The notes under the pieces were generated by a model. The model searched no databases and had not been told where the DNA came from. It saw only the letters and a program-made list of their open reading frames with translations. Shown piece after piece: positions 20,401 to 59,563 of a stretch of 64,000 bases of DNA (position 1 is its first letter; every line of letters begins with the position of its first letter). The position numbers and the translations under genes are program-made. The DNA lies in contig NZ_JASFYG010000001.1 in assembly GCF_030055435.1 (NCBI RefSeq), positions 82,154 through 146,153 on the forward strand, written 5' to 3'. This DNA comes from Methanothermobacter sp. (GTDB lineage Archaea > Methanobacteriota > Methanobacteria > Methanobacteriales > Methanothermobacteraceae).

Positions 20401-20837
20401 GTTTTGAACTTGATCTTAAGAGCCATATACAAAAGGTTTTATCGCAAAAAGAAGATCTTTGGACCTTTGTATTCAGAAAATGGCTTAAATCACACCTAGA
20501 AGAAAATGGAGATATAATAATAAATTACTATGAAATAATGGACTACCTTAAGCATCATATGCAGGAGGATATAGGGTCCTGGGAAGAGAAGGATGTTAAA
20601 GATAAGGTTAAAGATTGGTATATAAGGACCGTTACCCATCCCCCTAAGCCTTCGGAACCTCCAAAGTCCTCAGAAACTGAAACTGAACCCGAGCCTGAAC
20701 TGCCTGAGAATGAAATAAAAAAAATAAAAGATAGGATTAATGAGCTAGACCCTGAAAAATTGAAGAATATACTCCGAAGGCTCGTGGATGAGAATCCTTC
20801 AATTATAGGTCCATTAAGAAGATTAATGGGGGAATAA
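17487..20837 (+). CDS. brxC: BrxC/PglY-family large ATPase
   Basis: A 1116-residue AAA-type ATPase. Walker A GTYGTGKS (62-69) is preceded by RQSIWIQG; the Walker B-like VIFWDEFTG is near residue 235. IFPIHPYTAYIATIIARQIG and ERSIFKFLYD match the conserved DUF6079/BrxC-type core that follows the ATPase. The tail is Pro/Glu-rich (about 1055-1075), then a helical end. In BREX systems BrxC is essential and forms DNA-associated assemblies with PglZ. The gene overlaps brxP by one base and has GAGGGG upstream; pglZ follows after 3 bases. AT-rich codon use (AAA, ATA, TTA) contrasts with the flanks. Confidence 0.93.
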   Translation: MLYSDIISLNERFQPAYDLENELEDYWKTFIPNKRFYKILGETLNALESNRVEDRQSIWIQGTYGTGKSHAAAVIKHLLSDDPKILEDFEIKEPQLAARLKSFREKKRIFPVVIKGTAGITDPREFALLVEKSVRRALAEEGHELSVKTDFEKLIESLNNGHLNFESLFEGTEIEIYGSKDSIITLLEKEDIEIQRKIEKILSSKGIIIARENITDWLKEINEELKMRNIADNLVIFWDEFTGIMDLENSGPLLTEVQNIAELSPKHGIYLFIISHRTPYQLKNKGKEEDIEKILGRFKLLEYAMESVTTYHLIEHTIKKKDAEAWNSLKNQNISRIEDVIARITEIEDNATSSLENIFPIHPYTAYIATIIARQIGSTERSIFKFLYDDESGFKAFLSNDVTERPFLTADHLWDFFFKDFERIESEKVYSIIERYKLYQEKIDGLGENYSAIFKALLLLNLIYRLVELGETPILKPEMKNICHIFKGYLEEDTIKEVLEYIDNEKIVNKNPDGMFLISTSTLPYEEVEREKESLKETYNKVSIVLSDQHKKELLNSINALREVETHIFDLPPNKFNLHSKLENAFSKHHAVQIALFLGLDGTEINKIESYLSEASKEDHLRNKLLVVSKNELGEENFDRFLEYKARSNIAARHNYMDDKEENEKYAKKIIDKWISEIQNDYLTCFFNGNEYPQIFSKFGNFIEDFLSKEIFTHGLETVNSKQSKNIWKTQRSPKTAEIFLFAENRDDLEEKTKDGANKPLRLILKDHNENYIVDNDLNFKVDVNREHPLIVMDREIGKAIENEGDGVFNLGDVLKFLSKPPYGLYKSKINIAALSFLMRKYVDQLFEAGSGIQVTKERMRDKVIEIFEYWENNRNREKLNVRCGSEDEKKLIRLLSDIFDLEDITSLNEVKWKIKEWVKERDTPLWLFKCGESNQPEKFEKIFNLIFEFTRSNDTEINSEKIGRILTEIEGFELDLKSHIQKVLSQKEDLWTFVFRKWLKSHLEENGDIIINYYEIMDYLKHHMQEDIGSWEEKDVKDKVKDWYIRTVTHPPKPSEPPKSSETETEPEPELPENEIKKIKDRINELDPEKLKNILRRLVDENPSIIGPLRRLMGE

Positions 20838-20840
20838 GGC

Positions 20841-23168
20841 ATGCATTCCAACCTGAAAGAGTTTAACTCTTTCAATGATCTTTTTTTGGAGATTGAGGAG
20901 GACAAAAACTCTAAAAACAGGTACCCTGTTAGATTCATTTTTTTGAATTCATTTGAGGAATTAAATGAAGTAATCGAACATTTAAAAAATTTTTCAGATG
21001 TTGTATTCCTTGATTCCCTGCTGGATAACATGCAGTGGCTTACAAAGGATAGTATCCTCCTGGAAATAAAGAATAAGTTGAAGGAGGATTCAAGGCTTGT
21101 AATTGTTCCTCTTTCAGAATTCCTCAGGTTCACCCCAACTAATGACTTTTATGGTCTTCTAAAGGCCTTGTCTGAAATAGAGACCAATGATTACTCGAGA
21201 ATATACATTCCCCTTGTCGGACTTTATAAAAGATTTAAGAAGGAGTTTATTGATGAATTCTACAGAAAAGACGAATGGGCTCCCATCTGGAAGCTTATTG
21301 GGGATATAGAACCTGTTACGATATATCATGCTACATTTAATTTTGATGATACGCTGCAGCTCCCAGAATTTGAAATAATCAAAAATACGACGGACTGGTT
21401 CAACTTATGGAGAAATCCAGGAACTCTGAAGGTTCTTTCTTTTTCAAAGGTTATTCAGGTTTTTCATTCTAAATGGCTTCCTGACGAAATATTTAACTTA
21501 AAAATTATAAAGAATCAAAAGGAGTTCGTCGAGACAATATTTGGTGAAAAATTTGAATTGCCTTTTTATGAAAAAGATTCTAATTATTGGAATAGACTTA
21601 TCAAGATATTCAATAAGAGAGGTGTTGTAAGTACGACATCTTTGATTAAGGATCATTTTAATATTATGGATTTGAATAAATTAAAGGCCGCTGATTTTGT
21701 GGAATACTTCTTAAGTGAACCAGACAAATTTTATAAGTGGATCTTAAAGAATTATGTTTCACAATTTTTAGAGGATAAAATATATCTAAAACACTGCTTT
21801 ACCAAAATGGATGGCCTAGAAAATAGTGAACTAATTGAATTACTTTGGCTTGAAATATTCGGCCTTGAAAACATTGAAAGCTTCTATCTTGAGAGGAAAG
21901 AGATATTAAAAAGGATTCCGAAGATAGATGAGAGTAAAATTAAAGGTGCTTTGGAAAGGATCAAAGATCTTCCTCTAAAAGATCAGACACCTTATATTAC
22001 GGGAATATCCACAGCCGAAAAAGAATTTGTTATAAATAATGTCATGGAAATGGATTTAGGATCCATTAGACATCATCTAAAGGACTGTTTTCCTGAACTC
22101 TACTCTTATTATGGTTGGGATAATTTAAAGCCCATATTGAATTCTGATGGATGGTTATTAGAATATTTCAAAGAGTACAATATGTGCAAAATTAGGAATG
22201 ATTTCTCGGAAAATTTAAAATCACTTATTGAAGAAAAGAATAAAGACAAGAATTCCTTTTTTGATTGGTTTTATACTATTGAAAAGCCCAAAATAGATCC
22301 AAATGGAGTTAATTATTGGATTGATGGTCTGGGTGCCGAGTGGCTTCCATTTGTGTATTATTTGCTAGATGAATATCTAGGCGAAAACTATTTAGTTGAA
22401 GCACAAATTTGTCGCGTTGATTTACCAAGCATTACAAAATGTAACAAATATCCTTTTGAGAAATTTGGGGATCTAGACGGCTATATACACAATAACCATT
22501 ATAAACATCCGAAAACGTTAATAGAAGAACTTGAAATAATTAAACAGATCATAAAGAAAATTAAAGATGAAATCACCATTAACGACCATGGGGTTATCAA
22601 CATCTACTCAGACCATGGGTTTAGCTTTTTGACTTTAAGTAAGTTTAATGATAAAATTCTTGATTTTGATGATGCCCAGCATGAGGGCAGATACCTCTGG
22701 ATGGATAATAATGAGGACTTGAATGATAAATATTATATAACTTTAAAGTCTGAATGCTCCGATAAAAACGTTTTAGTGGCATTAAAGCATGTTTCGTTAT
22801 CTAATGTACCATCTAGGGAGACACACGGAGGCGCAACTCCTGAAGAAGTTCTAGTTCCATATTTCAGAATAATAAAGGCTGGAGAAGAAGTCACTTACAC
22901 CCTTGAAACAGCTGAATTAGATGCTGATATCAGTAATCCCGTGGTCACTTTCAGATTATCCCCCGTTCCAACTAAAATACCAGAAGCTTTAATTGAAAAC
23001 AAAACCTTGGTTGTCGAAAATAGGGGCGATGGTTATTACCAGGTAGATCTATCACAGTTAGGTGACCTAAGACCACAGTTATATAAAATCAAGTTAAAAA
23101 TTAATAAACAAACATTGGATCTTAGGGTTAATTTAAAAGGAGGATTTAGGGAGAGGGAGCTTATATGA
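20841..23168 (+). CDS. pglZ: PglZ, alkaline-phosphatase-superfamily BREX protein
   Basis: A 775-residue protein. The hallmark PglZ domain occupies roughly residues 480-660: NYWIDGLGAEWLPFVYYLL (Asp 495 in the usual first metal-site position), then NDHGV (about 582) and IYSDHGFSF (Asp 591-His 592), the paired metal-binding Asp/His of the alkaline phosphatase superfamily. RETHGGATPEEVLVPYF follows, as in other PglZ proteins. The N-terminal half is a helical region without recognised motif, and the C-terminus is beta-rich. PglZ is the one protein common to all BREX types; in some it acts as a nuclease or phosphodiesterase. It begins 3 bases after brxC, and its stop overlaps the brxL start (ATGA). 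Confidence 0.93.
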   Translation: MHSNLKEFNSFNDLFLEIEEDKNSKNRYPVRFIFLNSFEELNEVIEHLKNFSDVVFLDSLLDNMQWLTKDSILLEIKNKLKEDSRLVIVPLSEFLRFTPTNDFYGLLKALSEIETNDYSRIYIPLVGLYKRFKKEFIDEFYRKDEWAPIWKLIGDIEPVTIYHATFNFDDTLQLPEFEIIKNTTDWFNLWRNPGTLKVLSFSKVIQVFHSKWLPDEIFNLKIIKNQKEFVETIFGEKFELPFYEKDSNYWNRLIKIFNKRGVVSTTSLIKDHFNIMDLNKLKAADFVEYFLSEPDKFYKWILKNYVSQFLEDKIYLKHCFTKMDGLENSELIELLWLEIFGLENIESFYLERKEILKRIPKIDESKIKGALERIKDLPLKDQTPYITGISTAEKEFVINNVMEMDLGSIRHHLKDCFPELYSYYGWDNLKPILNSDGWLLEYFKEYNMCKIRNDFSENLKSLIEEKNKDKNSFFDWFYTIEKPKIDPNGVNYWIDGLGAEWLPFVYYLLDEYLGENYLVEAQICRVDLPSITKCNKYPFEKFGDLDGYIHNNHYKHPKTLIEELEIIKQIIKKIKDEITINDHGVINIYSDHGFSFLTLSKFNDKILDFDDAQHEGRYLWMDNNEDLNDKYYITLKSECSDKNVLVALKHVSLSNVPSRETHGGATPEEVLVPYFRIIKAGEEVTYTLETAELDADISNPVVTFRLSPVPTKIPEALIENKTLVVENRGDGYYQVDLSQLGDLRPQLYKIKLKINKQTLDLRVNLKGGFRERELI

Positions 23169-24595
23169 ACATGCTTGACTTTAAAATTAAAGAGAAATTT
23201 CCAATGGAATCTGTTCTAAAGAATCCTGAGATATACGGTGTATTCTCAGGATATAATCTACCCTCCTTCGTAAAGGACTGGTTAATCCAGAGGAACAGCA
23301 CTCAAGAGGGAAAAATTGATGAAGAAAATTTGAGACTCTTTTTAAACAGGCATATAGCTCAAAAAAATAAAAAAATTATTAAAGGGACATTAATTAATGA
23401 TTACATCCCTATAACCTTATTGTCAAGGATTATAATTGAACCGGATATAAGGAGTGGTGTTATAAAATTTTCTATTCCTGATTTAGGGATCGGTCCTAAT
23501 GAGGGTATAGTTCCAAACTATATTGCTGAGAAGCACCCCGAATTGAAAGGTGGAGAGGTTTGGGGTGTAGTAAAACTTTCATATAGTCCTCCAGATAATG
23601 GGAAAATGGGCTTTATAGAGATAGTAGATTATAAGTCATTCAAACCCTATGAAGTTGATCTGGAATATTTCAAACAAAAGAGGAATGACTTCACAATTGC
23701 AGAATGGATTGATTTGTTGATTAGGTCAATGGAGTACAATCCAGAGGGCTTTGAAAGTCTACAACAGAAACTTCTCTTTATATCAAGGTTGCTGATTTTT
23801 GTAGAACCAAATCTTAACATGTTTGAATTGGCCCCCAAGGGGACTGGAAAATCCTATGTTTTCAATAACCTGAGCAAATACGGATGGGTAATCAGTGGCG
23901 GCGTTATAAGTAGAGCCAAACTTTTGTATGACATTTCAAGAAAAACTCCTGGATTACTAACTCTTTACGATTTTGTTGCGATAGATGAAGTTGAAACAAT
24001 AAAATTTACAGATGAAAGTGAGTTACGTGGCGCCTTAAAGAATTACTTAGAATCAGGTACATTTTCTGTGGCTAATTATAAAGGTGAATCCTCAGCAGGT
24101 TTAATGGTCCTTGGAAACATTCCCCTTACACAGGAAAGGAAACCCGTTGATAACAGGTACTTTGCTAATTTACACAAGTTTTTCAATGACCCCGCACTCT
24201 TGGATAGGTTCCATGGGTTTATTGAAGGATGGAAACTTCCTAGAATGAGAGAAGATCTTATAATAAGGGGGTATGCTCTAAATGTGGAGTATTTCTCAGA
24301 GATTCTACATGAACTTAGGACAGACTCTCAATTCAGAAATATAGTCGAAAAACTAGTTCATGTGCCTAAAGATGCAGATACAAGGGATAAAAATGCTATA
24401 ATTAAATTGGCAACAGCTTACCTTAAGTTGATATTTCCCCATGTGAAGCATCCTGAGAATATAGACAAGAAAGATTTTGAAATGTATTGCCTTGATCCGG
24501 CCATTAAAATGAGGGAAATAATAAAAACACAGATAAGTTACATTGATCCTGAATTTTCAAGGGAAGTCCCTAATATTAAAATAAAAGATTATTGA
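23165..24595 (+). CDS. brxL: BrxL, short form (MCM-like AAA+ without Lon-like tail)
   Basis: A 476-residue last gene of the operon. The N-terminal portion (EKFPMESVLKNPEIYGVF, LPSFVKDWLI) and the region around IPLTLLSRIII resemble BrxL. The ATPase has Walker A APKGTGKS (K229) and Walker B FVAIDEVETIKF (about D272), and LMVLGNIPL in the sensor position. BrxL proteins of type 1 BREX are about 680-700 residues with a C-terminal Lon-protease-like domain. Here the protein stops shortly after a helical lid (about 400-476) and no Lon-like Ser-Lys region is seen. Bases after the stop do not continue the frame, so it is a short form rather than an obvious truncation. It is translationally coupled to pglZ. 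Confidence 0.88.
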   Translation: MNMLDFKIKEKFPMESVLKNPEIYGVFSGYNLPSFVKDWLIQRNSTQEGKIDEENLRLFLNRHIAQKNKKIIKGTLINDYIPITLLSRIIIEPDIRSGVIKFSIPDLGIGPNEGIVPNYIAEKHPELKGGEVWGVVKLSYSPPDNGKMGFIEIVDYKSFKPYEVDLEYFKQKRNDFTIAEWIDLLIRSMEYNPEGFESLQQKLLFISRLLIFVEPNLNMFELAPKGTGKSYVFNNLSKYGWVISGGVISRAKLLYDISRKTPGLLTLYDFVAIDEVETIKFTDESELRGALKNYLESGTFSVANYKGESSAGLMVLGNIPLTQERKPVDNRYFANLHKFFNDPALLDRFHGFIEGWKLPRMREDLIIRGYALNVEYFSEILHELRTDSQFRNIVEKLVHVPKDADTRDKNAIIKLATAYLKLIFPHVKHPENIDKKDFEMYCLDPAIKMREIIKTQISYIDPEFSREVPNIKIKDY

Positions 24596-46439: not shown

Positions 46440-49190
46440 ATGACAGGATCACTCTGCAGGAAAGGGGAGGCATGTACAGAGAACCAGAAGAGGGCCGTTA
46501 AGAAGACCGACGGGCCACTTGTAATTGTGGCAGGACCAGGTGCCGGGAAAACAAGGGTTCTTGTTGAGAGGACAGCTTACCTTGTTAAAAGAAAGGGGGT
46601 TAGCCCGGAGAATATACTTGTTATAACCTTCACAGAGAAGGCTGCAGATGAGCTGAAGTCAAGGCTCATAAACTGCGTTGGACTGGACGCCGAACTCATG
46701 CATATATCAACCATACACTCATTCTGCAGCACCATACTCAGGGAGCACCCCGAGGAACATGACCTTGGAGCGGGATTCGAGATCCTGGACGAGGAGTCAC
46801 AGCTCATGTTCCTAAGGTCAGTCTTCTACAGGATCGGGCTTAACAGTTTCATGAAGATGGGTGAGATTCATGAGGCAATAGAATTCTTCAACAGGTGCAC
46901 CGAGAACTACGTGGACCCCGATGAACTCATGGAGGCCCTCAAAAAACATTACCCTCATAAGAAGAGATACCATGGCATGGCAGCTTGCTACAGCCAATAC
47001 CTGAATGCCCTGAGGGAGGAGAAGAAGATAGACTTCCCTGGACTTGAAAAGGAGGTTTACATCCTCCTTAAATCAAACGAGGATGTCCTTGAATCTGTCA
47101 GAAATAAATACAGGTACATAATGATCGACGAGTACCAGGACACGAGCCCAATCCAGGAGAGGATATTCAGGACGATAGCAGGGCCCGAATCAAGCATATG
47201 CGTCGTTGGGGATGAGGACCAGAGCATCTACGGCTTCAGGGGCGCCACCCCCGAGAACTTCATAAGGTTCAGGGACAAATACAATGCAGAGGTGGTTTTC
47301 CTTGAGGACAACTTCAGGTCAAGGGCTGGGATAGTTCTCACAGCCGACAGGTTCATGAGGGGGGAGAGACACTACCGGAAAACCATAAAGCCTGTGAGGG
47401 ATGGCGGAACAGACGTTGTGATACTCAGGAGCCGTGATGTTAACTCCGAGGCCAGGAACATAGTAGCCCTCATAAAGAAACTCAAAGCCACAGGCAAAAT
47501 CCCTGACTACGGATACGTTGCACTTCTATTCAGGAGTGTGCGCTACCATGCAGACAAGGTACTCAGGGAGCTCAGGAGGGAGGGGATCCCCTACATAGTC
47601 CGCGGTGACGGATCATTCCTCAAGAGATACGAGATAAGGAGCATGCTCTACTTCCTGGCCTACGTGGACCCCCCCAATTACGATGGTAAATTCAGTGGAA
47701 GGTGGGGTGGCTGGTGGAACATCTCCATGTTCCGCGGTGAATTCCTGGATCTAAGTAGGGAAACACTGGAGGCCCTTGAATCCCTTGAGAGGGATGTGAA
47801 ACTCTCGGATTTCAACTCCCTCCAGGAACTGGAGGATGCTGGTATCCGGGGTGAAGATGCAGAGAAGATACTCGGCCTCAACAGGATCAGGGAGGAACTT
47901 GAAAAGGGCTCACTTACGGTGCTCCAGACCTTCTACAGGATACTGGAGGTGACAGGTTACCTCAGAAGACTCCTCCTTGATGGTAGTGACAAGAGCAGGG
48001 CAAGGATATTCAACCTTGCAAAGCTCAGTTCACTCATAGACAAGTATGAAACCATAAAACCAGGTGCCAGGATACAGGACATCCTCTGGTACCTCTACCT
48101 CCTCCCCCATCATCTCCACCATGACGAGGCCGTCCTGGAGGACCCGGCCTCAGTGAAGGTGATGACAGTCCACCAGGCAAAGGGTCTTGAGTTTCCTGTT
48201 GTGTTCATCTGCTCTGTAATAAATGGAAGGTTCCCGGGCAGAAAAAGGAAGAGGAAGGAACTGGTGCCCATCCCCCGGGAACTGCTCCTATCATCTGGAG
48301 AACAGGAGGATGAAGACCGACGGCTCTTCTATGTTGCAATGACAAGGGCCCAGGATGCACTTATCATCTCCACCGCACCCAGAATCAACACGAGGAAGGT
48401 GGGGATCTCACCATACATCACCGAGTTAAGGGAGAAGTGCGGTATATACGAGTGTGAGTGCACATCCATCGAGGGGTGCCTTGAGAGGGAGTGGTCAGAG
48501 GAGCCCCTACGGATCAACTTCTCGGCCCTCTTCACCTACGAGGAGTGCCCCTTCAGGTACATGATGATCTACCATTACGGCTTCGTCTACCCGGAAACCT
48601 TCATGCAGCGCTACGGTATCATACTACACAGGTGCCTCGAAGAGTTACACCTTGGAATGAAGAATTCAGAGAATATAAACGGGGCATTCATAAGGGAAAT
48701 CGTTGAAAGGTGCTGGATACCCATGGGGAGAGACGATGAGTTGAAAAAGAGGCGCCTTGAAAGGGAACTCCTCAACTACTACCATGACAGCAGGGACCAT
48801 ATAGAGGAGGTTGTCTCGGTGGAGGAGCCCTTCTCCATACCCGACGATGATATAATAATAGAGGGTCGGACCGACCTCATCATCAGGAACTCTGAGGGTG
48901 AACTGGAGCTTGTGGACTTCAAGGCCCGGGAACATGGGGGGATTGAGAGGATGGGACTCGAATACCAGCTCAGAACCTACGAGTATGCACTGAGGGAGAG
49001 ATACAATTTTGACAGGCTCTCTGCATACGCCATCAGGGACTCCATGAGGATATCATTTGACTCCGACCCCCAGTTCACTGTAAGGGAGAGGATAGAGGAG
49101 ACAGTTGAGAAAATAAGGAGTGAGTGCTTCGAGCCCCGCAGGAATCAGTTCTGCTCAAGGTGCGTGTTCAGGAACTTCTGTGGGGTATAA
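46440..49190 (+). CDS. UvrD/Rep-type helicase with RecB-like Fe-S nuclease, second paralogue
   Basis: A 916-residue paralogue of the gene at 3623-6379, with the same domain order and nearly the same length. Motifs: Walker A GPGAGKTR (about 33-40), TFTEKAADEL, STIHSFC, IDEYQDTSPIQ, GDEDQSIYGFRGATPENF, MTVHQAKGLEFPVV, RRLFYVAMTRAQD. The nuclease has EECPFRYMMIYHYGF (about 702), EGRTDLI, LELVDFKA and C-terminal CSRCVFRNFC for the Fe-S cluster. No ribosome site precedes ATG 46440; TTAATATAT at 46404-46412 is about 28-36 bases upstream, suggesting a leaderless transcript. The protein-level difference from the first copy is large, so the duplication is old. Confidence 0.93.
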   Translation: MTGSLCRKGEACTENQKRAVKKTDGPLVIVAGPGAGKTRVLVERTAYLVKRKGVSPENILVITFTEKAADELKSRLINCVGLDAELMHISTIHSFCSTILREHPEEHDLGAGFEILDEESQLMFLRSVFYRIGLNSFMKMGEIHEAIEFFNRCTENYVDPDELMEALKKHYPHKKRYHGMAACYSQYLNALREEKKIDFPGLEKEVYILLKSNEDVLESVRNKYRYIMIDEYQDTSPIQERIFRTIAGPESSICVVGDEDQSIYGFRGATPENFIRFRDKYNAEVVFLEDNFRSRAGIVLTADRFMRGERHYRKTIKPVRDGGTDVVILRSRDVNSEARNIVALIKKLKATGKIPDYGYVALLFRSVRYHADKVLRELRREGIPYIVRGDGSFLKRYEIRSMLYFLAYVDPPNYDGKFSGRWGGWWNISMFRGEFLDLSRETLEALESLERDVKLSDFNSLQELEDAGIRGEDAEKILGLNRIREELEKGSLTVLQTFYRILEVTGYLRRLLLDGSDKSRARIFNLAKLSSLIDKYETIKPGARIQDILWYLYLLPHHLHHDEAVLEDPASVKVMTVHQAKGLEFPVVFICSVINGRFPGRKRKRKELVPIPRELLLSSGEQEDEDRRLFYVAMTRAQDALIISTAPRINTRKVGISPYITELREKCGIYECECTSIEGCLEREWSEEPLRINFSALFTYEECPFRYMMIYHYGFVYPETFMQRYGIILHRCLEELHLGMKNSENINGAFIREIVERCWIPMGRDDELKKRRLERELLNYYHDSRDHIEEVVSVEEPFSIPDDDIIIEGRTDLIIRNSEGELELVDFKAREHGGIERMGLEYQLRTYEYALRERYNFDRLSAYAIRDSMRISFDSDPQFTVRERIEETVEKIRSECFEPRRNQFCSRCVFRNFCGV

Positions 49191-49231
49191 CCTGATGGAA
49201 TTTACGCATTTGGGTGATTGAGGTGTTTCTT

Positions 49232-49648
49232 ATGGATTTCACACATTTCTATGATGTTTTACGGGAGAACATTAACAGTTACCGTGGAGAATATGAGAGG
49301 ATAGTGGACTACGCACCGGATCTCTTCCGGCTGCTGGCTGAAGTGCTTAGGACTGATGAGGTGCTGAGTGAGGAGAGGCTGAGGATATCCGCCGCCATGG
49401 GCTACCTGGTGGCCCCCTACGATGTGATACCCGAGGAGATCTATGGTCCACATGGATACATTGACGACGTTTACATCTGCGCTGTGGTTGTTGATGAGCT
49501 TGCATCCCGCCACGGATACGCCTTTCTGGAGGAGCACTGGGCTGGTGATGAAGAACTTGAATCAGTTATTGAAGAGTGCCTGGAGAGGGCCTCGGAGATA
49601 CTGGGAGAAAAAAGAGGGGAAATACTCTCATATGCCGGTTTCAGGTGA
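49232..49648 (+). CDS. DUF1232 (YkvA-like) protein
   Basis: A 138-residue protein. The core RISAAMGYLVAPYDVIPEEI with GYIDDVYICAVVVDEL is the DUF1232 pattern: a short, largely hydrophobic hairpin with conserved P-x-D-x-IP. The surrounding parts are helical and acidic. The function of the family is not established; it is probably membrane-associated. ATG 49232 is preferred because GAGGTG lies 6-8 bases upstream; the in-frame GTG 49214 lacks such a site. A T-rich run after the stop (49700-49720) could be a terminator. Confidence 0.75.
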   Translation: MDFTHFYDVLRENINSYRGEYERIVDYAPDLFRLLAEVLRTDEVLSEERLRISAAMGYLVAPYDVIPEEIYGPHGYIDDVYICAVVVDELASRHGYAFLEEHWAGDEELESVIEECLERASEILGEKRGEILSYAGFR

Positions 49649-49798: not shown

Positions 49799-52700
49799 TT
49801 GAATGATATTACTGATGGATTCTCCTCTTTAAGAAAAGGTGCATACACTGGAATTGCTCTTTTTATACTTCTACTGAGTATTCTGGCAATTACATGTCCT
49901 GTTTCTGCTGCTGAACTCAACGAGTCGGCGATACCACCACCTGGCATTGACCCATACGGGACAGTGAAGTCCTGGAATGGGGATCCGATAGAAAATGCAA
50001 CTGTAAGGGCCCTGCAGGATTGTGTGACGGTTGCTGAGAACACCACCAGTTCATCAGGGGCCTACAACCTTATCTTACCCCCGGGCACCTATGAAGTTGT
50101 GGCATCAGCCGAAAATTACACCCCATCATCACTTATCCTTGACGTGAATGAACCCCTCGAGGTCAACTTTGAACTTGCATACCCCAACTCCTTCTACGGT
50201 ACCGTCTATGACACCACCGGCGCGCCACTGGAGAACGTCATCGTTGAGGTCCGTGACCAGCTGGACGTCACCATAGCAGAGAACTACACCGATTCCGCTG
50301 GCAGATATATGGTAAATTATGGAAGATACTTTGATGAACACCCCGGCGTCATACAGGCCTACCTTGCCCTCGTGGCTTTCCGCGGCGACCTCTTCACAGA
50401 GAGGTACAACATCCTCATGGACCCTGGTGAATCATCACGCTTTGATCTTGAAATGGAGTACCGCACCTCCCTCCGGGGCACTGTGAGGGGCCAGGAGACC
50501 CTGCCATCAGATATCCCTGTAAACGTCCTTCTTGAGGGCGAGAACCGCACAGAGTACACCGACCCCTATGGGAAGTTCTACTTTGAGTTCAGAGAGGATG
50601 AGGTCCCCCTCGTGAGGGGGGTAATGGTGGATGCCTACGGTTACCATCCCTGGAGCAGTGACCTTACCCTCCAGCCAGGTGACGACATAACACTTGATAT
50701 AATCCTAGATGAGAGGGCGCTCCTCACGGTTAACGTCACCAATTCAAGTGGGGAGCCTGTTGAAGATGCTGTTATCTCATTCGCTGGAATGGAGGGATAC
50801 ACCGGTGAGGATGGCTCAGTTAAACTGGCCGTCGAGACTGGAGAACTCACCCTTAATGTTTCACATCCACTCTACGCCCCTGAAACCAGGGCAATTCAGG
50901 TTGATGATGGTAAAAACACCCTCAGCATCCAACTTATAAGATTCGGGCTTCCGGTTGAGGTTAGGGGAACCGTGGTTGATAGGGGAACACCCATTGATGG
51001 TGCCGAGGTTGTCCTCGAATCAGGCTCATTCCGGTTAAGCAGGTACACCAGTTCCAGTGGGGAGTACGCCTTCAGCACAGATGACCACCCCATCCTCACA
51101 TCAGGTGTGCCCGTGACACTCACTGTGCAGATGTGGATGTATAAACCCTACGCTGAGACCTTCACAGTCCCTGAAACAGGGGATTACAGGGAAATTGAAC
51201 TTGAACATGAAACCACACTGGGGGGTTATGTGAGTGACCCCGACGATAACATCGTATACGCGGATGTTACCCTCAGCTACACCCAGAATGGTGAACCTGT
51301 TGAGCTGAACGCGGGCCTTGATGAGGGAGGCCATTACCTCTTCTATGGTGTTGGACCCTCAGATACAGGGACATATGACATCCACGCTTATCACCCACTC
51401 TACAGGCCCTACCATGCAGTCATAGCCCTGAACATGTCCTCTGAAAACGTGCATAACATCGTTATGGGCTACTATGACGGTTCAGCCTCCTTCACAGTAC
51501 TGAACTGGGATGGGGAGCCACTGAGTGGAGTGGGGATCCAGCTTGATGGACCCGCCCACCTCTACAGGGTCACAGGGGCGGATGGTGTTGCACTCTTCAA
51601 CCACATCCCCGATGGCCTCTGGACCTACACGGTGGGGCCCTACGGCTATGTACCGGTCACCGGTAATTTCACAATCACTGATGGTGGCAGTGAGTTAGTG
51701 ACGGTGAGGCTCATAAGGAAGGGACTTCCTGTGACACTGCAGGGTCATGTCTATGACTCAACGGGTGCACCGCTACGGGGTGTCAGGCTGTACTTCTGGC
51801 CTGAAACACATCCAGGATACACATCCATATGGAGCGAGACGAATTCAGATGGGTTATACGTCTTCACAACCCAGAATTACCCTGAACTGGTATCAGGCCT
51901 CTCAGGTCACCTCAAAACCTACCTGTCACACTACCGTGACGCAGACATCTACATGTTAATCGGGGAGGGTGTCACAACCCGTGACATACAGCTGGACCTC
52001 TGGCCCTCAAACATAACTGTTAATGTTACTGACATTAACGGCAACCCTGTGGTGGGTGAAACCGTCTACCTCTTTGGCCCGGACACATTCAGTGGCACCA
52101 CAGGTGCTGATGGTCTTGCTGTATTTGAACACTGCCCTGCCTCAGAGTACTGGGACATCTCCCTCTACCCTTATAACTACTATTACTGGGACGGCTACTG
52201 GTACACCCTCACAGAGGACAGGAACCTGACTGTCAATGTCACACTGGTGCCAAGGACGGTGCCCTGTGAGATAAAAGGTACTGTGGTTGATGATGTGGGG
52301 GTTCCAGTATTCAATGTTAAGGTGGACCTCCTCTACATAAATGCAGACCAGCCTGTTGAATGGAATTCAGTAAGAACAGATTCATCAGGTAGATTCACAT
52401 GTAACCTCTATGGAACAACAGCCAACCTTATGAGGCTCGTATTCTCAAAGGATGGTTACAGGAACCTCACAGTTGATATACTGCCCGGGGAGTTACCTGT
52501 GAACAGGGTGTTCACGCTTCAGCTTGATGTTGAGGAAACAGGCAGGGTGCAGGGTTACATAAGGAACTTCCCTGGTGAGCCTCTTTCAGGGATAACCGTC
52601 ACAGCCTCAAGGGTGGGTTACCCCAGCATCTCAAACACTACAGATTCCAGTGGCTTCTACAGCTTCGACCTTCCAGCAGGGAACTACATCTTCACAGCCT

Positions 52701-55700
52701 CCAGCCCCACCCACATCCCTGTGAGCAAGGCCACCACTATTGCGCCCAACCTAATAATCCCTGTGGACTTTGAACTGCACCTTAAAAACTCCGTTTATGG
52801 TCGGGTGCTCCATGCGAACTTTGAAAGGGACCCCTCACCTCTGGAGGGGGCGCTTGTGGAACTTTTAATGGATGGTACATCAGTTGCATCCACCATCACA
52901 GACTCTGAGGGAAGATATGAGATAGCCATCCCAATATCAGGATCATATAACCTTACAGCAGCACTATACCCCTATGAGCCTGCATCAGAAGCAGTTGATC
53001 TCCAGGAAACATCAGCCCTATTCAGGGAGATCATACTGTATCCTGGTCCATACTCAGGCATCCATGGTACAGTAACAGACGCTGTAACAGGTCTCCCGCT
53101 GGGTGGTGTCACAGTGACCTTCAGAAGATACAGAGGCGAATTTGTTGACCTTGAACTTGTGGCACTCACCGGTACAGATGGATCATACAGCTTCCAGTCA
53201 CTCCAACCCTGGATACCCTACACCCTGGACTTTGAAAAACCAGGCTACGTACCTGTAAGGGACCTCTGGTTATTCCCTGAAGTTGGTGAGGATTTTGAAC
53301 ACAACCAGCCACTTCAGCCATTCCTCTCAACTATGATTGAGGGCCAGATACTCTGCTGGGCCGGGCCCCTCCAGGGTGAGGTGGTCCTGGATGGTGCCAT
53401 CAGTATGATTACAGGCCCCGATGGCAGATTCGAGTTCACTGATATCATACCAGGCTACCACATACTCACAGCATATGTCACTGATAGGGCAGAGTCCGTC
53501 TACTTCCTCCTTGGAAACGGGGAGCACCTCCACCAGGATATTGTCTTCAGGACCTTCGTAATGGACAGGTCCCCCTCACCAGGGGAGGTCCTCAGGGAAC
53601 TCCAGAGTGTGGGTGTGAGGCTCTTCGGTGGAAGGGATGGTGCTGCGGCCACACTGAACCTCTACCCTGGAACAGCCGCCACAGGGACACCAATCCCTGG
53701 AATACTCTCATGGACAGGGGACTGGCTCATATTCACGCCCTCCTCAATGCCCCCCAGGGGCCCATGCACAGCCAGGGCTGAGGTGCCAGGTGAGGTAACA
53801 GCGACCTGGACATTCCAGTACCTGCCACCGACAGGTAACCCGCCAGTTATCACATCTATTAGCCCCCAGGATGGGTCATTCTTCAGGAAGCCCACAGAGA
53901 TACCGGTAACGGTGTCTGTGAGGAATGACCCTGGAAATGGACTCTCATTTGTTGATTCAAAGATCCTCCTTGATAATCTGCCAGTTGCAACCATGATAAC
54001 AGGTAACAGCCTCACAGGAAGCTGGGCAATGACAGCGACACTATCAGGCATCTCAGCTGGATGGCACAAACTCACCGCCATCGCAATTGATCCCCAGGGC
54101 CTCGGCACATCAGTGGACTGGAGGATCTTCGTGTCCTATGCTTCAGGCCCCACCATAAGCAACCTCAGGGTGACGCCCGCATTTGTACCTGGAAGGGAAA
54201 GCATGCATATAACCGCAGATATAAGTGAACCTGTAAGGTCGGTTTCCCTTCTCTTTGAGATACCATCCAACAGTGTTGAACTTGGAGGATTTGAGGATAG
54301 AATAGATGGATACTGGAGCGGATGGTTGAGGGACTGGCAGAGGACGTTCATGGCACCCGATGGGGAGATACACTTCACCATCATGGCTGTGGGGATGGAT
54401 GGGGCATTCTCAAACACACTGGGTGGTTCAACAATCGTCGACACCACGGGACCTGAAATCATATTAACAGATCCTGATGTGATCAAATCAAGAAATACCC
54501 CTATCGGAGGCATACTTAAGGACCTTACCGGAATTTTCAGTTTCAATGCAACATCAAAAACCTGCAATGTGACATCAAGCTTTACGGCAACCACATTCAC
54601 GGTGAACATCTCAGCCCCCTCTGACGGCTACCATGAGATAGTGATGAATGCCACCGACATCCTTGGAAACTTCCGGAGTGTGGTCTACAGGATTCTCATT
54701 GACACATCAAAGCCTCTTGTCCAGTTCACAGCTCCAAGGGAGAATAGCACCGTGAGACCGGGCACCTTACTGAGCTTCAGGGTATCAGATACTGGACCAT
54801 CAGGTCTCTGGAGGGGCAAACTAATGGTTTATTATAACAGAATGTATGACAGAATGCCTGATCCTGTCCCTCAGGACCTGAGGGTACTACTTGACGGTAC
54901 TGATATAACAGGTAGGCTTCAGTATGGAGGGAGAACATATTCTGATCCTTTAATCTCAGGCATATATGGCTACAATTATAACTATACAGCATCACTTGAA
55001 TCCATTGAGGTAAAATACAATCCCAGGTTATATGGCTTCCTCAGCGATGGCCAGCACACACTCCAGGTTACAGTAAGGGACAGGGCAGGTAACGAGGAGA
55101 CATCTGAACTGCGCTTCTCAAGCTTCACCGGAAACCCTGAAATCATAGAAAAGAGTATTGATATGGTCTCAGAGGAAAATGAAACCCTGATTATGATATT
55201 TGATGTGCAGGAGAACTCAGATGGTGGATTCAATAAATTCATGCTTAAGGTGGATGGCTCCACGGTAGCATCGCAGCCCATCATAACCCCTGGCACTCTT
55301 CCCTACATGTGTACTGTGAGATATGAGGTTACAGGAAACTTTACAGAGGGCCCGCACACGGTGAGCCTTACAGTTACCGATGGCAGGGGATTCTCAGGGA
55401 CACTGGACACAGGATTCTATCACCTTGAAAGGACACCTGTAAGCCTACAGAACTTCAATGAGAGGTACATGTACATCCCTGACATCGGGGTGTACTCAGG
55501 AAACCACACCCATTACCTGAAAACCAACAGTTCATACTACTTCAAACCTGGCAGCAGCGCCCTTCACGGTTACTGTGCAATGGATGGACCCAGCAACAAT
55601 CTCCTCAGGAGATACTCAGAAAGATCGGATAACATCATACTCCCAATGGGTGGGCAGCTTGCCTTCACCATAGCAGAGACCCCATATATTAATGTGGCTG

Positions 55701-58621
55701 ATGCAGAATACCTCTCACTGTGGATGACCGATATAGAGGTCATCAACAACGTTTACTGGGGGTGGGGTGGAGGTATACTGGTCTACTTCGACGATGGGCG
55801 AGGATACAACCTTCTGGTGAATAACACCAAGGGAATTCGCGGCTTTGACCTCCTAAGCACCCTGAACCCCCCTGCAATACTCTACGTCAGACATGAAGCC
55901 CCATGGGTGAACCGGGCAGGTATTGTGGATAACAGTGTCGCATCCAGAAGGGGAGCTGACGGAAGGATATGGAAGAACTACATTGTGAAGATACCCGAGG
56001 GCCTTAACACAGCCAACCTGAAGGTGATATTCGTATGGGAGACCGTGAACTGGTACCAGAACAGCGCGGGTATGACGGTCTCTGTCTCATCAAAGATAGA
56101 CCACATTGAATTTGTTAAGTCCATAGTGGATTTCGTGTACCCGGACTTCGGTGAGGAGGACGTTAAACTCAAACCAACAATATGGGCCTGGTTCAAGGTT
56201 CCCCTGGATGCTGCAAGGTTCAGTTCAGATGTCTTCCACCTCAGGAACTCCGCAGGCGGAATCATAAACGGAACAGCCAGCTACGATCAAACACTGCAGA
56301 GGGCCTACTTCACACCCTTCAGTGAACTTGGAGGCCTCAAAACCTTCACCGGATACGTCAGCCAGGACATAAGGACTATCTATGGGGTTGTACTCCCAAA
56401 AATGGGGCCCTACACATGGAGCTTCACAACTGCCCGTGGACAGCCAGCCCTCTGGCAGACTATCAGGTACAATGGAGAGGACTACTGCATATACCTCGTC
56501 TGGGGACCAGACTACGCTGGGGGAAAACCAGGCTACCTTTACTCAGGCAATGAACTTGTATCAACCTATGGAACACTCCTGGAGATACAGGTACTCAAGA
56601 AGGTTGGAAGCAACTACTATGAGATCGGGGACATGGACCTCAAACGCATGATATTCCAGGCGGCCCAGAGAAAGGCCTTCTACACCACCTTCAATGTCAC
56701 ATCCCCTGAACTCATACCCCAGTCAACCAGGGACTGGATTGAGGACTCCGCAGGAAGCTGGAGCGGCTGGTTACTCTGGGGAATCGCATGGCTGGTCTCA
56801 GACCCGGCCCCGATCCCTGACGACGATGAGGTTATAAAGGACATGATAGGCCTCATACTGGGTGATGGATCAACACCAGCCACGCTCACAGGGGTTGAAC
56901 AGGCACTATCCTGGTTCTCAACGGGACTCACCGGTGCAAGTAAAATAAACGATGCCGTGGAGAAACTGAGGGAGATGAAGGCCAAGAAGGCGGGTAACAA
57001 GTTTGAGGAGAGTGTCGTGGGTGATGTCCTTGAGATAGCAGAGTTTGTTAAGGGAGAACTTGACTTCCAGAGGGAACTCTGGGAGTACGTCTTCAAGTGC
57101 ATGTGGCAGCTGAGGGTTGCAGAGAACTACCGGCCACAGCTGACAGCCATCCTCCCATACACATCTGGAAGTACACATGAGGCCATCAGTGAATTCCTAT
57201 CAGCGAGTATAGACACGGTGAAAAGGGATATAGCTCGCAAGGTGGCTGAACACATAGGTAAAACAACCGTCAGCCTGATCAAGGATGCTGTCCTCGATGT
57301 GGTCAGCAAAAACCCCTACGGTAAGATCGTGGTGACGACACTGAAGGTCTTCTTCAAGATAGCAAGCTTCACAAGGTGGGATGATGTCCATGCATCATCG
57401 AATGTTGCAGTAGCATACTCGGACGCAGAGTACAGCTTCCACAATGCCCGGGAGGCACTGGTCAGTACCTTCAGGCTTGTATCACCTGACAGAATCACAG
57501 TTGATGACGTCACCTACCCTGCGACGGCTGGAAGGCTCTGGTACGGTGCAGGGGGATACTTCTATGATACCCTGCTCAAGATAGCCAGGATAGTGAGGAA
57601 CTGGCCAACATCCGATAGGAGTTCATGGGACGCCGCAATACCCATATATGAGAGATATGCCTCAGAGTACCTTAGAAGGAGTGGTAGCTTCATACCCGAG
57701 ATGCTATCATCAAACACCGATATAATGCGTCTCCTCCCCCTCATAAAGGGGGGCACGCAGGGTAAACCCTCAAGGATATACCTGGCAGCCTATTCACCTG
57801 TGGCACTCCTTGTAACAGCACCTGACGGCCGCAGGATAGGATATGACCCCACACGTCCTGAGGGTCAGAGAATAGTCAACGACTTCGGTGCCAGCGCATT
57901 CTACAACAGCCCCTACAGTGAACCACAGGTCATGGTGATACCTGCAGGTATAGGGGAGCTCAGGATACAGGCCTTCGGGGTTGACACAGACAGTTACAGG
58001 ATAACCGTTGAGGTCCTCGATGAGGATGGAAACCCCATCTCAGGTTCAGAGTGGACCGGTAACATCACCCCTGGTGTCTATAAATTCTTCAGCATCCTCA
58101 TAGACCAGTACGGCTCAACCTACAAGTACGATGGCAGGGCACCGGTTATCAGGGTTACAGGCGTATCAGGTGGCGGAAGGTACACCGGTACAGTAAAACC
58201 CCTCATATCAGTTGACGATGACAACCTTGAGGGGTGGTTCGCAACACTAAACGGCAAACTCTACACAGGGGGCCCGGTAAGTTCACCGGGTGTTTACACA
58301 CTGGTTGTGAGGGCCACGGATGGAGTGAACGTGGTCTACAGTACAGTGATATTCATGATACAGGAGGTTTCACCCGTGAAGCCACCCGAGGAGGGTGAAC
58401 ACGGCGGTGTAGGGGAGACTGTGATTGTGCATGCGGTGTACACTGTTTCAGGTGCTGTGAGTGAGGTCCCCTCAGGGGCTGTGGTACCGCCCGCTGAAGT
58501 GGTTAACGTTACACCCACAGGTATGAGGGGAGGATATGACTACACATGGCTTGCGGTGTCTCTCCTGGTATCAGTGCTCATAATTGGGGTGTACGGGGCC
58601 CTTAGAAGGAGTAATACGTGA
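49799..58621 (+). CDS. Giant surface protein with repeated CarboxypepD_reg-like and Ig-like domains
   Basis: A 2940-residue exported protein. TTG 49799 follows GGGGGGT. A signal peptide (about 1-38, IALFILLLSILAITCPVSA) and a C-terminal anchor (WLAVSLLVSVLIIGVYGALRR) frame it. Residues about 50-1240 hold some 14 carboxypeptidase-regulatory-like modules (G-V-D-G-P-L-x-V...DG-Y-F pattern, for example GTVYDTTGAPLENVIVEV). Ig-like or big domains follow (PVITSISPQDGSFF; DTSKPLVQFTAPRENS). A SbsA-type Big_5 domain (YPDFGEEDVKLKPTIWAWF) is near 2110-2200. An unusual helical block runs at about 2280-2600, then Ig-like domains. It is probably a cell-surface adhesin or S-layer-associated stalk, heavily N-glycosylated (many NxT/S). 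A TATA-like AATAATATTTATA lies near 49760-49772. Confidence 0.85.
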   Translation: MNDITDGFSSLRKGAYTGIALFILLLSILAITCPVSAAELNESAIPPPGIDPYGTVKSWNGDPIENATVRALQDCVTVAENTTSSSGAYNLILPPGTYEVVASAENYTPSSLILDVNEPLEVNFELAYPNSFYGTVYDTTGAPLENVIVEVRDQLDVTIAENYTDSAGRYMVNYGRYFDEHPGVIQAYLALVAFRGDLFTERYNILMDPGESSRFDLEMEYRTSLRGTVRGQETLPSDIPVNVLLEGENRTEYTDPYGKFYFEFREDEVPLVRGVMVDAYGYHPWSSDLTLQPGDDITLDIILDERALLTVNVTNSSGEPVEDAVISFAGMEGYTGEDGSVKLAVETGELTLNVSHPLYAPETRAIQVDDGKNTLSIQLIRFGLPVEVRGTVVDRGTPIDGAEVVLESGSFRLSRYTSSSGEYAFSTDDHPILTSGVPVTLTVQMWMYKPYAETFTVPETGDYREIELEHETTLGGYVSDPDDNIVYADVTLSYTQNGEPVELNAGLDEGGHYLFYGVGPSDTGTYDIHAYHPLYRPYHAVIALNMSSENVHNIVMGYYDGSASFTVLNWDGEPLSGVGIQLDGPAHLYRVTGADGVALFNHIPDGLWTYTVGPYGYVPVTGNFTITDGGSELVTVRLIRKGLPVTLQGHVYDSTGAPLRGVRLYFWPETHPGYTSIWSETNSDGLYVFTTQNYPELVSGLSGHLKTYLSHYRDADIYMLIGEGVTTRDIQLDLWPSNITVNVTDINGNPVVGETVYLFGPDTFSGTTGADGLAVFEHCPASEYWDISLYPYNYYYWDGYWYTLTEDRNLTVNVTLVPRTVPCEIKGTVVDDVGVPVFNVKVDLLYINADQPVEWNSVRTDSSGRFTCNLYGTTANLMRLVFSKDGYRNLTVDILPGELPVNRVFTLQLDVEETGRVQGYIRNFPGEPLSGITVTASRVGYPSISNTTDSSGFYSFDLPAGNYIFTASSPTHIPVSKATTIAPNLIIPVDFELHLKNSVYGRVLHANFERDPSPLEGALVELLMDGTSVASTITDSEGRYEIAIPISGSYNLTAALYPYEPASEAVDLQETSALFREIILYPGPYSGIHGTVTDAVTGLPLGGVTVTFRRYRGEFVDLELVALTGTDGSYSFQSLQPWIPYTLDFEKPGYVPVRDLWLFPEVGEDFEHNQPLQPFLSTMIEGQILCWAGPLQGEVVLDGAISMITGPDGRFEFTDIIPGYHILTAYVTDRAESVYFLLGNGEHLHQDIVFRTFVMDRSPSPGEVLRELQSVGVRLFGGRDGAAATLNLYPGTAATGTPIPGILSWTGDWLIFTPSSMPPRGPCTARAEVPGEVTATWTFQYLPPTGNPPVITSISPQDGSFFRKPTEIPVTVSVRNDPGNGLSFVDSKILLDNLPVATMITGNSLTGSWAMTATLSGISAGWHKLTAIAIDPQGLGTSVDWRIFVSYASGPTISNLRVTPAFVPGRESMHITADISEPVRSVSLLFEIPSNSVELGGFEDRIDGYWSGWLRDWQRTFMAPDGEIHFTIMAVGMDGAFSNTLGGSTIVDTTGPEIILTDPDVIKSRNTPIGGILKDLTGIFSFNATSKTCNVTSSFTATTFTVNISAPSDGYHEIVMNATDILGNFRSVVYRILIDTSKPLVQFTAPRENSTVRPGTLLSFRVSDTGPSGLWRGKLMVYYNRMYDRMPDPVPQDLRVLLDGTDITGRLQYGGRTYSDPLISGIYGYNYNYTASLESIEVKYNPRLYGFLSDGQHTLQVTVRDRAGNEETSELRFSSFTGNPEIIEKSIDMVSEENETLIMIFDVQENSDGGFNKFMLKVDGSTVASQPIITPGTLPYMCTVRYEVTGNFTEGPHTVSLTVTDGRGFSGTLDTGFYHLERTPVSLQNFNERYMYIPDIGVYSGNHTHYLKTNSSYYFKPGSSALHGYCAMDGPSNNLLRRYSERSDNIILPMGGQLAFTIAETPYINVADAEYLSLWMTDIEVINNVYWGWGGGILVYFDDGRGYNLLVNNTKGIRGFDLLSTLNPPAILYVRHEAPWVNRAGIVDNSVASRRGADGRIWKNYIVKIPEGLNTANLKVIFVWETVNWYQNSAGMTVSVSSKIDHIEFVKSIVDFVYPDFGEEDVKLKPTIWAWFKVPLDAARFSSDVFHLRNSAGGIINGTASYDQTLQRAYFTPFSELGGLKTFTGYVSQDIRTIYGVVLPKMGPYTWSFTTARGQPALWQTIRYNGEDYCIYLVWGPDYAGGKPGYLYSGNELVSTYGTLLEIQVLKKVGSNYYEIGDMDLKRMIFQAAQRKAFYTTFNVTSPELIPQSTRDWIEDSAGSWSGWLLWGIAWLVSDPAPIPDDDEVIKDMIGLILGDGSTPATLTGVEQALSWFSTGLTGASKINDAVEKLREMKAKKAGNKFEESVVGDVLEIAEFVKGELDFQRELWEYVFKCMWQLRVAENYRPQLTAILPYTSGSTHEAISEFLSASIDTVKRDIARKVAEHIGKTTVSLIKDAVLDVVSKNPYGKIVVTTLKVFFKIASFTRWDDVHASSNVAVAYSDAEYSFHNAREALVSTFRLVSPDRITVDDVTYPATAGRLWYGAGGYFYDTLLKIARIVRNWPTSDRSSWDAAIPIYERYASEYLRRSGSFIPEMLSSNTDIMRLLPLIKGGTQGKPSRIYLAAYSPVALLVTAPDGRRIGYDPTRPEGQRIVNDFGASAFYNSPYSEPQVMVIPAGIGELRIQAFGVDTDSYRITVEVLDEDGNPISGSEWTGNITPGVYKFFSILIDQYGSTYKYDGRAPVIRVTGVSGGGRYTGTVKPLISVDDDNLEGWFATLNGKLYTGGPVSSPGVYTLVVRATDGVNVVYSTVIFMIQEVSPVKPPEEGEHGGVGETVIVHAVYTVSGAVSEVPSGAVVPPAEVVNVTPTGMRGGYDYTWLAVSLLVSVLIIGVYGALRRSNT

Positions 58622-58624
58622 GGG

Positions 58625-59563
58625 CTACCTCCCCCACAATTCTGATCCGCAGATCCCGCAGAAGTTCTCATCACCTGTTAGGGGTGTTCCGCATTTATGA
58701 CACTTTAAATCGATTTCTAATTGTGAACCAGTGTGTTTTTCTATAATTTCATTGTATGCCCCTGATTCAACCCAATCAAGGATTTCCGATGCTCTCATAA
58801 CAGTCCAGGGGTGTGTTGATCCCATGATGAGGATGGTTTTCCCTACCTTATCAAGGTTATCATAATCGTACCCCTTGAATTCCCTTGCCTGTTCAATGAA
58901 TTTATCTCTGTCAATCTTGTCGAAGAAACTTTTAGGTGCGCCTGCAATTTTAATCATGGCATTTATGGCAGCATCCTCATCCTGACATGCCAGGAGACCA
59001 GCCCTGTCAGCGGTGAATTCTGACATTCTATTCCAGTAGAGGAGTGCCAGTTCAAGGCCGGTACTTATGAGTCCACCTATTCCCAGTGTAGCCGTGCCAA
59101 TGATGTCACCCGCTATGGGTATAATCTCTGCCATGATATGGTACAGCATATGGCCACTTTTGATATGGCCGACCTCATGACCAATTACATATCGCAGTTC
59201 ATCTTCTGTGAGTAAATCAATGGCACCTGAGTTTAAGATGATTATTGGGTTTTCTGATCCTATGGTACGTCCATTAACCCTATAATTCCATTCTATATAA
59301 AGTTCAGGTATCTTTTTGAGGTGAAGGGTGTTACAGACATCAAGAAGAATATCGTGAACTTCAGAAAAGTGGTTCTCATTGACCTTTATGTAGCTTCCAG
59401 TGTACTGCAATCGATAATATCTTTCTACACCATGCTTGAATATCTTACGCGTTAATGTTTCAAGTCCAGGCGTTCCCTCAAGGGCCTGGAGCGCCTGGCG
59501 GTCCAGTGGGTGCTCATATTCACTGGGATGGAGAAAGTTAAGCTTTTTTATTTCACCAGCCAT
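58625..59563 (-). CDS. M48-family metalloprotease with C-terminal zinc ribbon
   Basis: A 312-residue zinc protease. RYVIGHEVGHIKSGHML contains HExxH (about 130-134), and EFTADRAGLLAC supplies the third zinc ligand Glu of the M48/HtpX type. A hydrophobic segment (IAGDIIGTATLGIGGLISTGL) lies between them. The C-terminus adds CHKCGTPLTGDENFCGICG, a four-cysteine zinc ribbon. It is probably a membrane-associated quality-control protease. The upstream zinc-ribbon gene ends 4 bases before it (GGTGATATA then ATG 59563), so they form an operon. It is convergent with the giant surface protein gene, only 3 bases away. Confidence 0.88.
   Translation of the reverse strand: MAGEIKKLNFLHPSEYEHPLDRQALQALEGTPGLETLTRKIFKHGVERYYRLQYTGSYIKVNENHFSEVHDILLDVCNTLHLKKIPELYIEWNYRVNGRTIGSENPIIILNSGAIDLLTEDELRYVIGHEVGHIKSGHMLYHIMAEIIPIAGDIIGTATLGIGGLISTGLELALLYWNRMSEFTADRAGLLACQDEDAAINAMIKIAGAPKSFFDKIDRDKFIEQAREFKGYDYDNLDKVGKTILIMGSTHPWTVMRASEILDWVESGAYNEIIEKHTGSQLEIDLKCHKCGTPLTGDENFCGICGSELWGR

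Follow-up and report, generated by a model that had tools for sequence, protein, structure and literature searches.

Among the surface proteins of methanogens, the closest described counterparts of the protein reported here are the adhesin-like proteins (ALPs) of the Methanobacteriales. ALPs with carboxypeptidase regulatory-like domains number one in M. smithii and three in M. stadtmanae (PMC11532034, Table 2), and two Methanothermobacter species are credited with 12 ALPs each (PMC3087415, Table 1). The available text of PMC8416519 describes two further archaeal groups: VARTIG of the Thermococcales, in which the C-terminal Ig domain varies by recombination and downstream genes shuffle, and alpha2-macroglobulin/TEP-like proteins.

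Here we describe a predicted surface protein of 2,940 residues encoded in the window, by which we mean the whole 64,000-nucleotide stretch of Methanothermobacter DNA that was analysed. Like the Methanobacteriales ALPs portrayed in the available text of PMC11532034, it combines a membrane anchor, long arrays of beta domains and a predicted surface location; unlike them, it shows no right-handed beta-helix (a feature common in ALPs, though not found in all), and it carries 14 modules of one type together with an orphan helical block near the anchor. With VARTIG, as far as that text describes it, the protein shares a large Ig-like build and the apparent exchange of one end by recombination, but here it is the N-terminal modules that differ, no set of shuffling genes accompanies the gene, and the few genomes compared show one exchange. 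The hypervariable C-terminal Ig domain and the downstream operon of the VARTIG module are absent: the C-terminal beta domains are conserved, and the next gene downstream lies on the opposite strand. The archaeal alpha2-macroglobulin/TEP-like proteins of the same source resemble it in having a beta-module stalk, a helical block and a C-terminal beta domain, whereas no TED match and no CxEQ motif are found here. Tandem transthyretin-like modules also recall the stalk of NOMO (BOS complex), with only the module fold in common; a whole-protein profile run against PDB sequences had NOMO (9c7v_B, E 1.8e-6) as its only match at E up to 0.001.

Among the matches listed by literature searches, in such text as these provide, the 2,940-residue protein is not described, either under Methanothermobacter carboxypeptidase regulatory-like and adhesin-like surface proteins or under mosaic recombination of Methanobacteriales ALPs. 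A large modular methanogen surface protein is by itself ordinary; what is new here is the orphan helical domain and the probable exchange of the tip. We consider it slightly better than an even bet that the gene encodes a membrane-anchored stalk of the adhesin-like kind, whose tip is exchangeable and whose new helical element, at the level of the wall, serves structure or assembly and is not a binding head.

Results

A single locus with patchy occurrence

The open reading frame is uninterrupted at the position where the preliminary description had placed a protein of 2,940 residues (Table 1), and corresponds to G000:C1:131952-140771 in its own genome (G000; 1.67 Mb, 99.7% complete). Full-length orthologs occur in three of the seven other Methanothermobacter genomes, at 98% (G001), 80% (G007) and 45% (G002) identity; with such orthologs, the frame is not a product of chance. 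The nearest of them, in G001, is open throughout and starts with TTG at the same place, behind the same G-rich stretch. A search of the host genome with the whole protein found only the gene itself, and among 60 relatives the protein was matched in five, in the fifth by no more than a 72-residue stretch of a single module (E 1.5e-5).

Table 1. Features of the surface-protein gene and its neighbours, in window coordinates
Feature	Position	Strand	Basis
UvrD-type helicase with PD-(D/E)XK nuclease domain, conserved upstream neighbour	46440..49190	+	
150-aa DUF1232 protein, conserved upstream neighbour	49196..49648	+	
Whole gene, 2,940 aa, TTG start	49799..58621	+	ORF listing; orthologs; same TTG in G001
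Distal region, residues 1-929 (predicted signal peptide, modules 1-10, just into module 11)	49799..52585	+	Synonymous breakpoint against G007
Hydrophobic core of predicted signal peptide, residues 19-37	49853..49909	+	Hydropathy
14 tandem CarboxypepD_reg-like (transthyretin-like) modules, residues 53-1250	49955..53548	+	Pfam and own profile
Beta-rich/Ig-like region, residues 1251-2109	53549..56125	+	Pfam; 1880-2109 without assignment
Big_5 Ig-like domain, residues 2110-2211	56126..56431	+	Pfam, above cut-off
Short beta section, residues 2212-2276	56432..56626	+	Best-scoring part of a poor AlphaFold model
Orphan block, predicted all-helical, residues 2277-2640	56627..57718	+	AlphaFold; no family reaches its cut-off
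Membrane-proximal beta/Ig-like region, residues 2655-2857	57761..58369	+	Judged by eye from sequence
Predicted C-terminal membrane helix, residues 2917-2935, then Arg-Arg	58547..58603	+	Hydropathy
M48 peptidase with zinc ribbon, downstream neighbour	58625..59563	-	

The gene is carried by four of the eight Methanothermobacter genomes, its own included, and always at one conserved locus, where a UvrD-nuclease gene and a DUF1232 gene (the latter named from the window copy) precede it in all four carriers. At the corresponding sites of the non-carriers G005 and G006, only 243 and 300 bases separate the DUF1232 frame from the M48 frame (in G006, from a piece of it), and tblastn detected no remnant of the gene at either site. 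The gene is absent at this locus from M. thermautotrophicus Delta-H, and the sites in G003, with a truncated UvrD neighbour, and G004, with only a distant UvrD paralog, are not comparable. In a tree of the UvrD protein, carrier G002 groups with non-carrier G006, with G005 beside them. This grouping of a carrier with non-carriers points to a patchy presence that arose either by two losses or by a gain through recombination.

Downstream, a complete M48 gene is present in the window and in G001 and G005; G002 and G006 have only its C-terminal part, some 110 residues long. It is missing at the site in G007, in which a second RNA polymerase A' (Rpb1-like) gene takes its place beside the surface gene (L030:3714-6338). 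That second gene is 81% identical to the copy elsewhere in the same genome; in G006, Rpb1-like matches fall in four pieces, none of them full length.

A proposed stalk with 14 tandem modules

Only two membrane-like segments, residues 19-37 and 2917-2935, appear in the whole protein when these are defined by a 19-residue mean hydropathy of at least 1.6. They are the predicted export signal and C-terminal anchor, so that both of these ALP features are present. The module array opens soon after the first. Pfam matches CarboxypepD_reg to the protein as a whole at E 2.9e-92, in 12 stretches at E up to 1 and in 10 at E up to 0.01, and a profile seeded from the protein itself resolves 14 modules within residues 53-1250, each at E below 1e-13, plus a doubtful 15-residue piece (E 0.11). 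Leave-one-out profiles built on 13 modules recovered every left-out module, some of them partially, at E 1e-13 to 8e-4; control searches with 20 shuffles, the reversed sequence and residues 1251-2940 gave E 0.33 at best. The initial estimate of about 14 carboxypeptidase-like modules is thereby borne out. Comparison of repeat number between orthologs, which had been suggested as a check, revealed no variation: 14 modules are scored in three of the four proteins and 13 in the fourth, whose 14th aligns at 51% identity without being scored.

Beyond the array, residues 1251-2211 appear beta-rich on composition and on inspection by eye. As to the repeated Big/Ig-like domains of ALPs, Big_5 lies above the Pfam cut-off, Big_13 is a partial match above it (residues 1748-1773) and Big_7 falls below it (residues 1349-1427), the array itself being CarboxypepD_reg; the membrane-proximal residues 2655-2857 have no Pfam match over cut-off. 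Across the whole protein 21 Pfam families match at E up to 1, with no right-handed beta-helix domain among them, and the best-scoring S-layer models of NCBIfam reach 54.8 and 37.4 bits against cut-offs of 1400 and 700. N-glycosylation sequons number 18 in the 1,210 residues of the module array and 12 in the 965 residues between the array and the helical block, which itself has one in 364.

An orphan helical section near the predicted anchor

Two AlphaFold runs without an alignment gave nothing but helices for about residues 2279-2636 (mean pLDDT 44.5 and 44.3; pTM 0.28 and 0.36). We take the helical section to be real as predicted secondary structure, in models of low confidence: structure prediction, which had been suggested as a check, gave an all-helical section, and at a mean pLDDT of 44 a fold was not obtained. 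Nothing over cut-off was found for the block by Pfam and PHROGs searches with the block, or at the block by Pfam and NCBIfam searches with the whole protein, in which the best stretch per family was considered. Together with the PDB-sequence searches, which likewise match nothing, these results uphold the original report of a helical section without a recognised motif, including on the point where it had thought itself open to contradiction, namely an HMM match of the block to a known domain.

Several candidate relatives were discarded. Five PDB sequences found at E up to 1 with the block alone (best 0.0047) vanish when a four-ortholog profile is used; Gemini_AL1_M and XH are Pfam matches below cut-off; the thioester domain is represented by neither a PF07678 match nor a CxEQ motif; and the pseudomurein-binding repeat PF09373, with 28 matches in the genome, has none in the gene.

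In broader searches, the block was matched in five of 149 genomes of the order, these being its own, the three with orthologs and one with a weak match (E 2.4e-4) to an unrelated 186-residue frame; a search of 151 genomes from the phylum, a set that overlaps the first for the most part, returned the same five. Among genome contigs, the block profile gave 52 pattern matches and the whole protein 13, none confirmed in either case; the known orthologs were likewise missed by these scans, whose collections, like those of phages and plasmids, may lack near genomes. A scan of viral contigs for the block gave 113 pattern matches with none confirmed. Residues 2212-2660 were matched by neither phages nor plasmids, and the whole protein by no phage; with residues 1880-2860 one plasmid was matched, through a 64-residue part of the Ig-like tail (E 6e-4). 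By sequence, then, the helical block is new, with no credible relative in these collections beyond the orthologs of the gene. It shares this isolation with the beta region at residues 1880-2211, which matches only the four carriers among the 149 genomes of the order. The tail (residues 2661-2860) adds to the four carriers a weak match to a generic Ig-like repeat protein (E 6.7e-4).

The order of parts, with beta modules followed by a helical block of about 360 residues and then by beta domains, is that of an alpha2-macroglobulin/TEP-like protein, in which an MG-like stalk, a helical thioester domain and a C-terminal beta domain succeed one another. In the stalk, moreover, Pfam MG4 lies above cut-off (bMG3 falls below it), and archaeal proteins of such a kind exist, according to the available text of PMC8416519. 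The TED family PF07678 is nevertheless absent from the host and 59 other genomes of the order, in a search that was positive in four of 14 controls; the CxEQ motif occurs in none of the four orthologs, and the one C..Q of the block is missing from the distant ortholog. We regard a protein of this type as very improbable.

Which end of the stalk the block occupies can be judged from the topology. A C-terminal anchor would put the block on the membrane side, at the foot of the stalk, and make the N-terminus the free tip, with several Ig-like domains and the 14 modules between it and the block. From the end of the block to the membrane helix there are some 280 residues, which comprise beta domains and a linker. 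Beta modules are usually 3.5-4 nm long; the gap would correspond to about 8-15 nm, putting the block in or near the pseudomurein wall. Such a position suggests contact with the wall, and it is here that the block might be a wall-binding domain, standing in for pseudomurein-binding repeats and locking the stalk in the sacculus. Its place between anchor and stalk would suit that role, as would the 28 PF09373 matches of the genome, none of which falls within the gene; the block is, however, nearly neutral (net charge -8), and we think a wall-binding domain rather unlikely.

Probable exchange of the distal modules

The distribution of differences between orthologs sets the two ends of the protein apart. 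The helical block is 99% identical to its counterpart in G001, 93% in G007 and 32% in G002, and modules 1-10 are 96% identical in G001 and 63% in G007. In the comparison with the distant ortholog G002, few parts of the protein are less conserved than the block, the domains flanking it being 54-62% identical. The block changes little among near relatives and diverges more over long time spans; the shift in its rate relative to the flanks, from near pairs to far ones, falls short of significance (p 0.15).

Synonymous change locates the difference more closely. Computed against G007 in 150-codon windows, dS is 1.05-1.78 over residues 1-900 and 0.18-0.63 over residues 901-2940; for the neighbouring UvrD, ZIP, histidine kinase and DUF1232 genes it is 0.37, 0.32, 0.32 and 0.47. 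The best single breakpoint falls at residue 929, with a synonymous difference of 0.60 to its left and 0.28 to its right, and was reached by none of 200 codon shuffles. Comparison of G001 with G007 places it at the same residue (0 of 200 shuffles), and modules 10 and 11 adjoin at residues 909-917. Since raised synonymous change does not come from protein selection alone, the distal ten modules have probably been exchanged with another lineage, an event of recombination that the breakpoint would reflect. The helical block, over which dN/dS against G007 is 0.11-0.25 (residues 2251-2700), has probably descended with the chromosome.

The probable tip exchange is visible as one event, between the window lineage and G007. 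The pair of window and G001 likewise has a significant breakpoint, at residue 914 (0.089 against 0.027; 0 of 200 shuffles), but there the tip value is ordinary for the flanking genes (dS 0.064, 0.033, 0.051 and 0.177) and it is the rest of the gene that is low, so that no tip exchange is shown by this pair. Against G002, where dS is saturated, no significant breakpoint emerged (57 of 200 shuffles).

These observations bear on the role first proposed for the block, which the preliminary description had topping the stalk, as a possible binding head or self-assembly device. As the only large non-beta section, without known relative, it might indeed be a binding head or specificity domain, and it differs more from the distant ortholog than its neighbours do. 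Against this, it lies near the membrane anchor, far from the free end, and close relatives do not differ mainly there; what looks exchanged is the tip modules. Such a head therefore seems to us quite unlikely. Conservation among close relatives, paucity of sequons and a position just above the membrane argue instead for a structural or assembly element as the most likely role of the block.

A model of the stalk

Under the reading that we favour, of a stalk with an exchangeable tip and a structural block, the anchor and helical base would hold the stalk, and the N-terminus, carried by the module array, would project through and beyond the pseudomurein wall. Folded at the level of the wall and serving structure or assembly, the block would hold or space the stalk. 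The outer ten modules, which may come into contact with partners, surfaces or viruses, would be the part that is exchanged. For binding, for the partners and for the function of the block, the model draws on inference from these sequences.

A bolder form of the model is that a new fold, so far seen only in this Methanothermobacter protein, seats or assembles the stalk in the wall and that the outer ten modules are a recombining recognition cassette; with a conserved base and an exchangeable tip, this would serve partner or self recognition or escape from viruses. We hold this to be doubtful. If the stalk is as we propose, it would offer a test system for how pseudomurein-walled archaea hold very long proteins through the wall, and a test of whether swapping a protein's tip determines the choice of partner or the sensitivity to viruses. 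The genus has genetic tools for M. thermautotrophicus Delta-H, itself without the gene, for which shuttle vectors exist, according to the available text of PMC8609365.

Other surface and defence genes

The genome encodes two other giant surface proteins, both of which carry a CarboxypepD_reg match: a repetitive one of at least 2,431 residues that is cut by a contig end (L042:3-7295, contig C4 of G000), and an anchored one of 1,501 residues (L043:758-5260, contig C1), which we take from its sequence to be CobN-like. Elsewhere in the window, PADLOC identifies the BREX defence genes BrxP, BrxC, PglZ and BrxL at 15139-24595, the first three of them at 33-34% G+C against 48% for the window. A 1,595-residue DUF4011/MTES_1575 nuclease-helicase at 29870-34657 matches the PADLOC candidate PDC-S37 and the Hhe defence protein.
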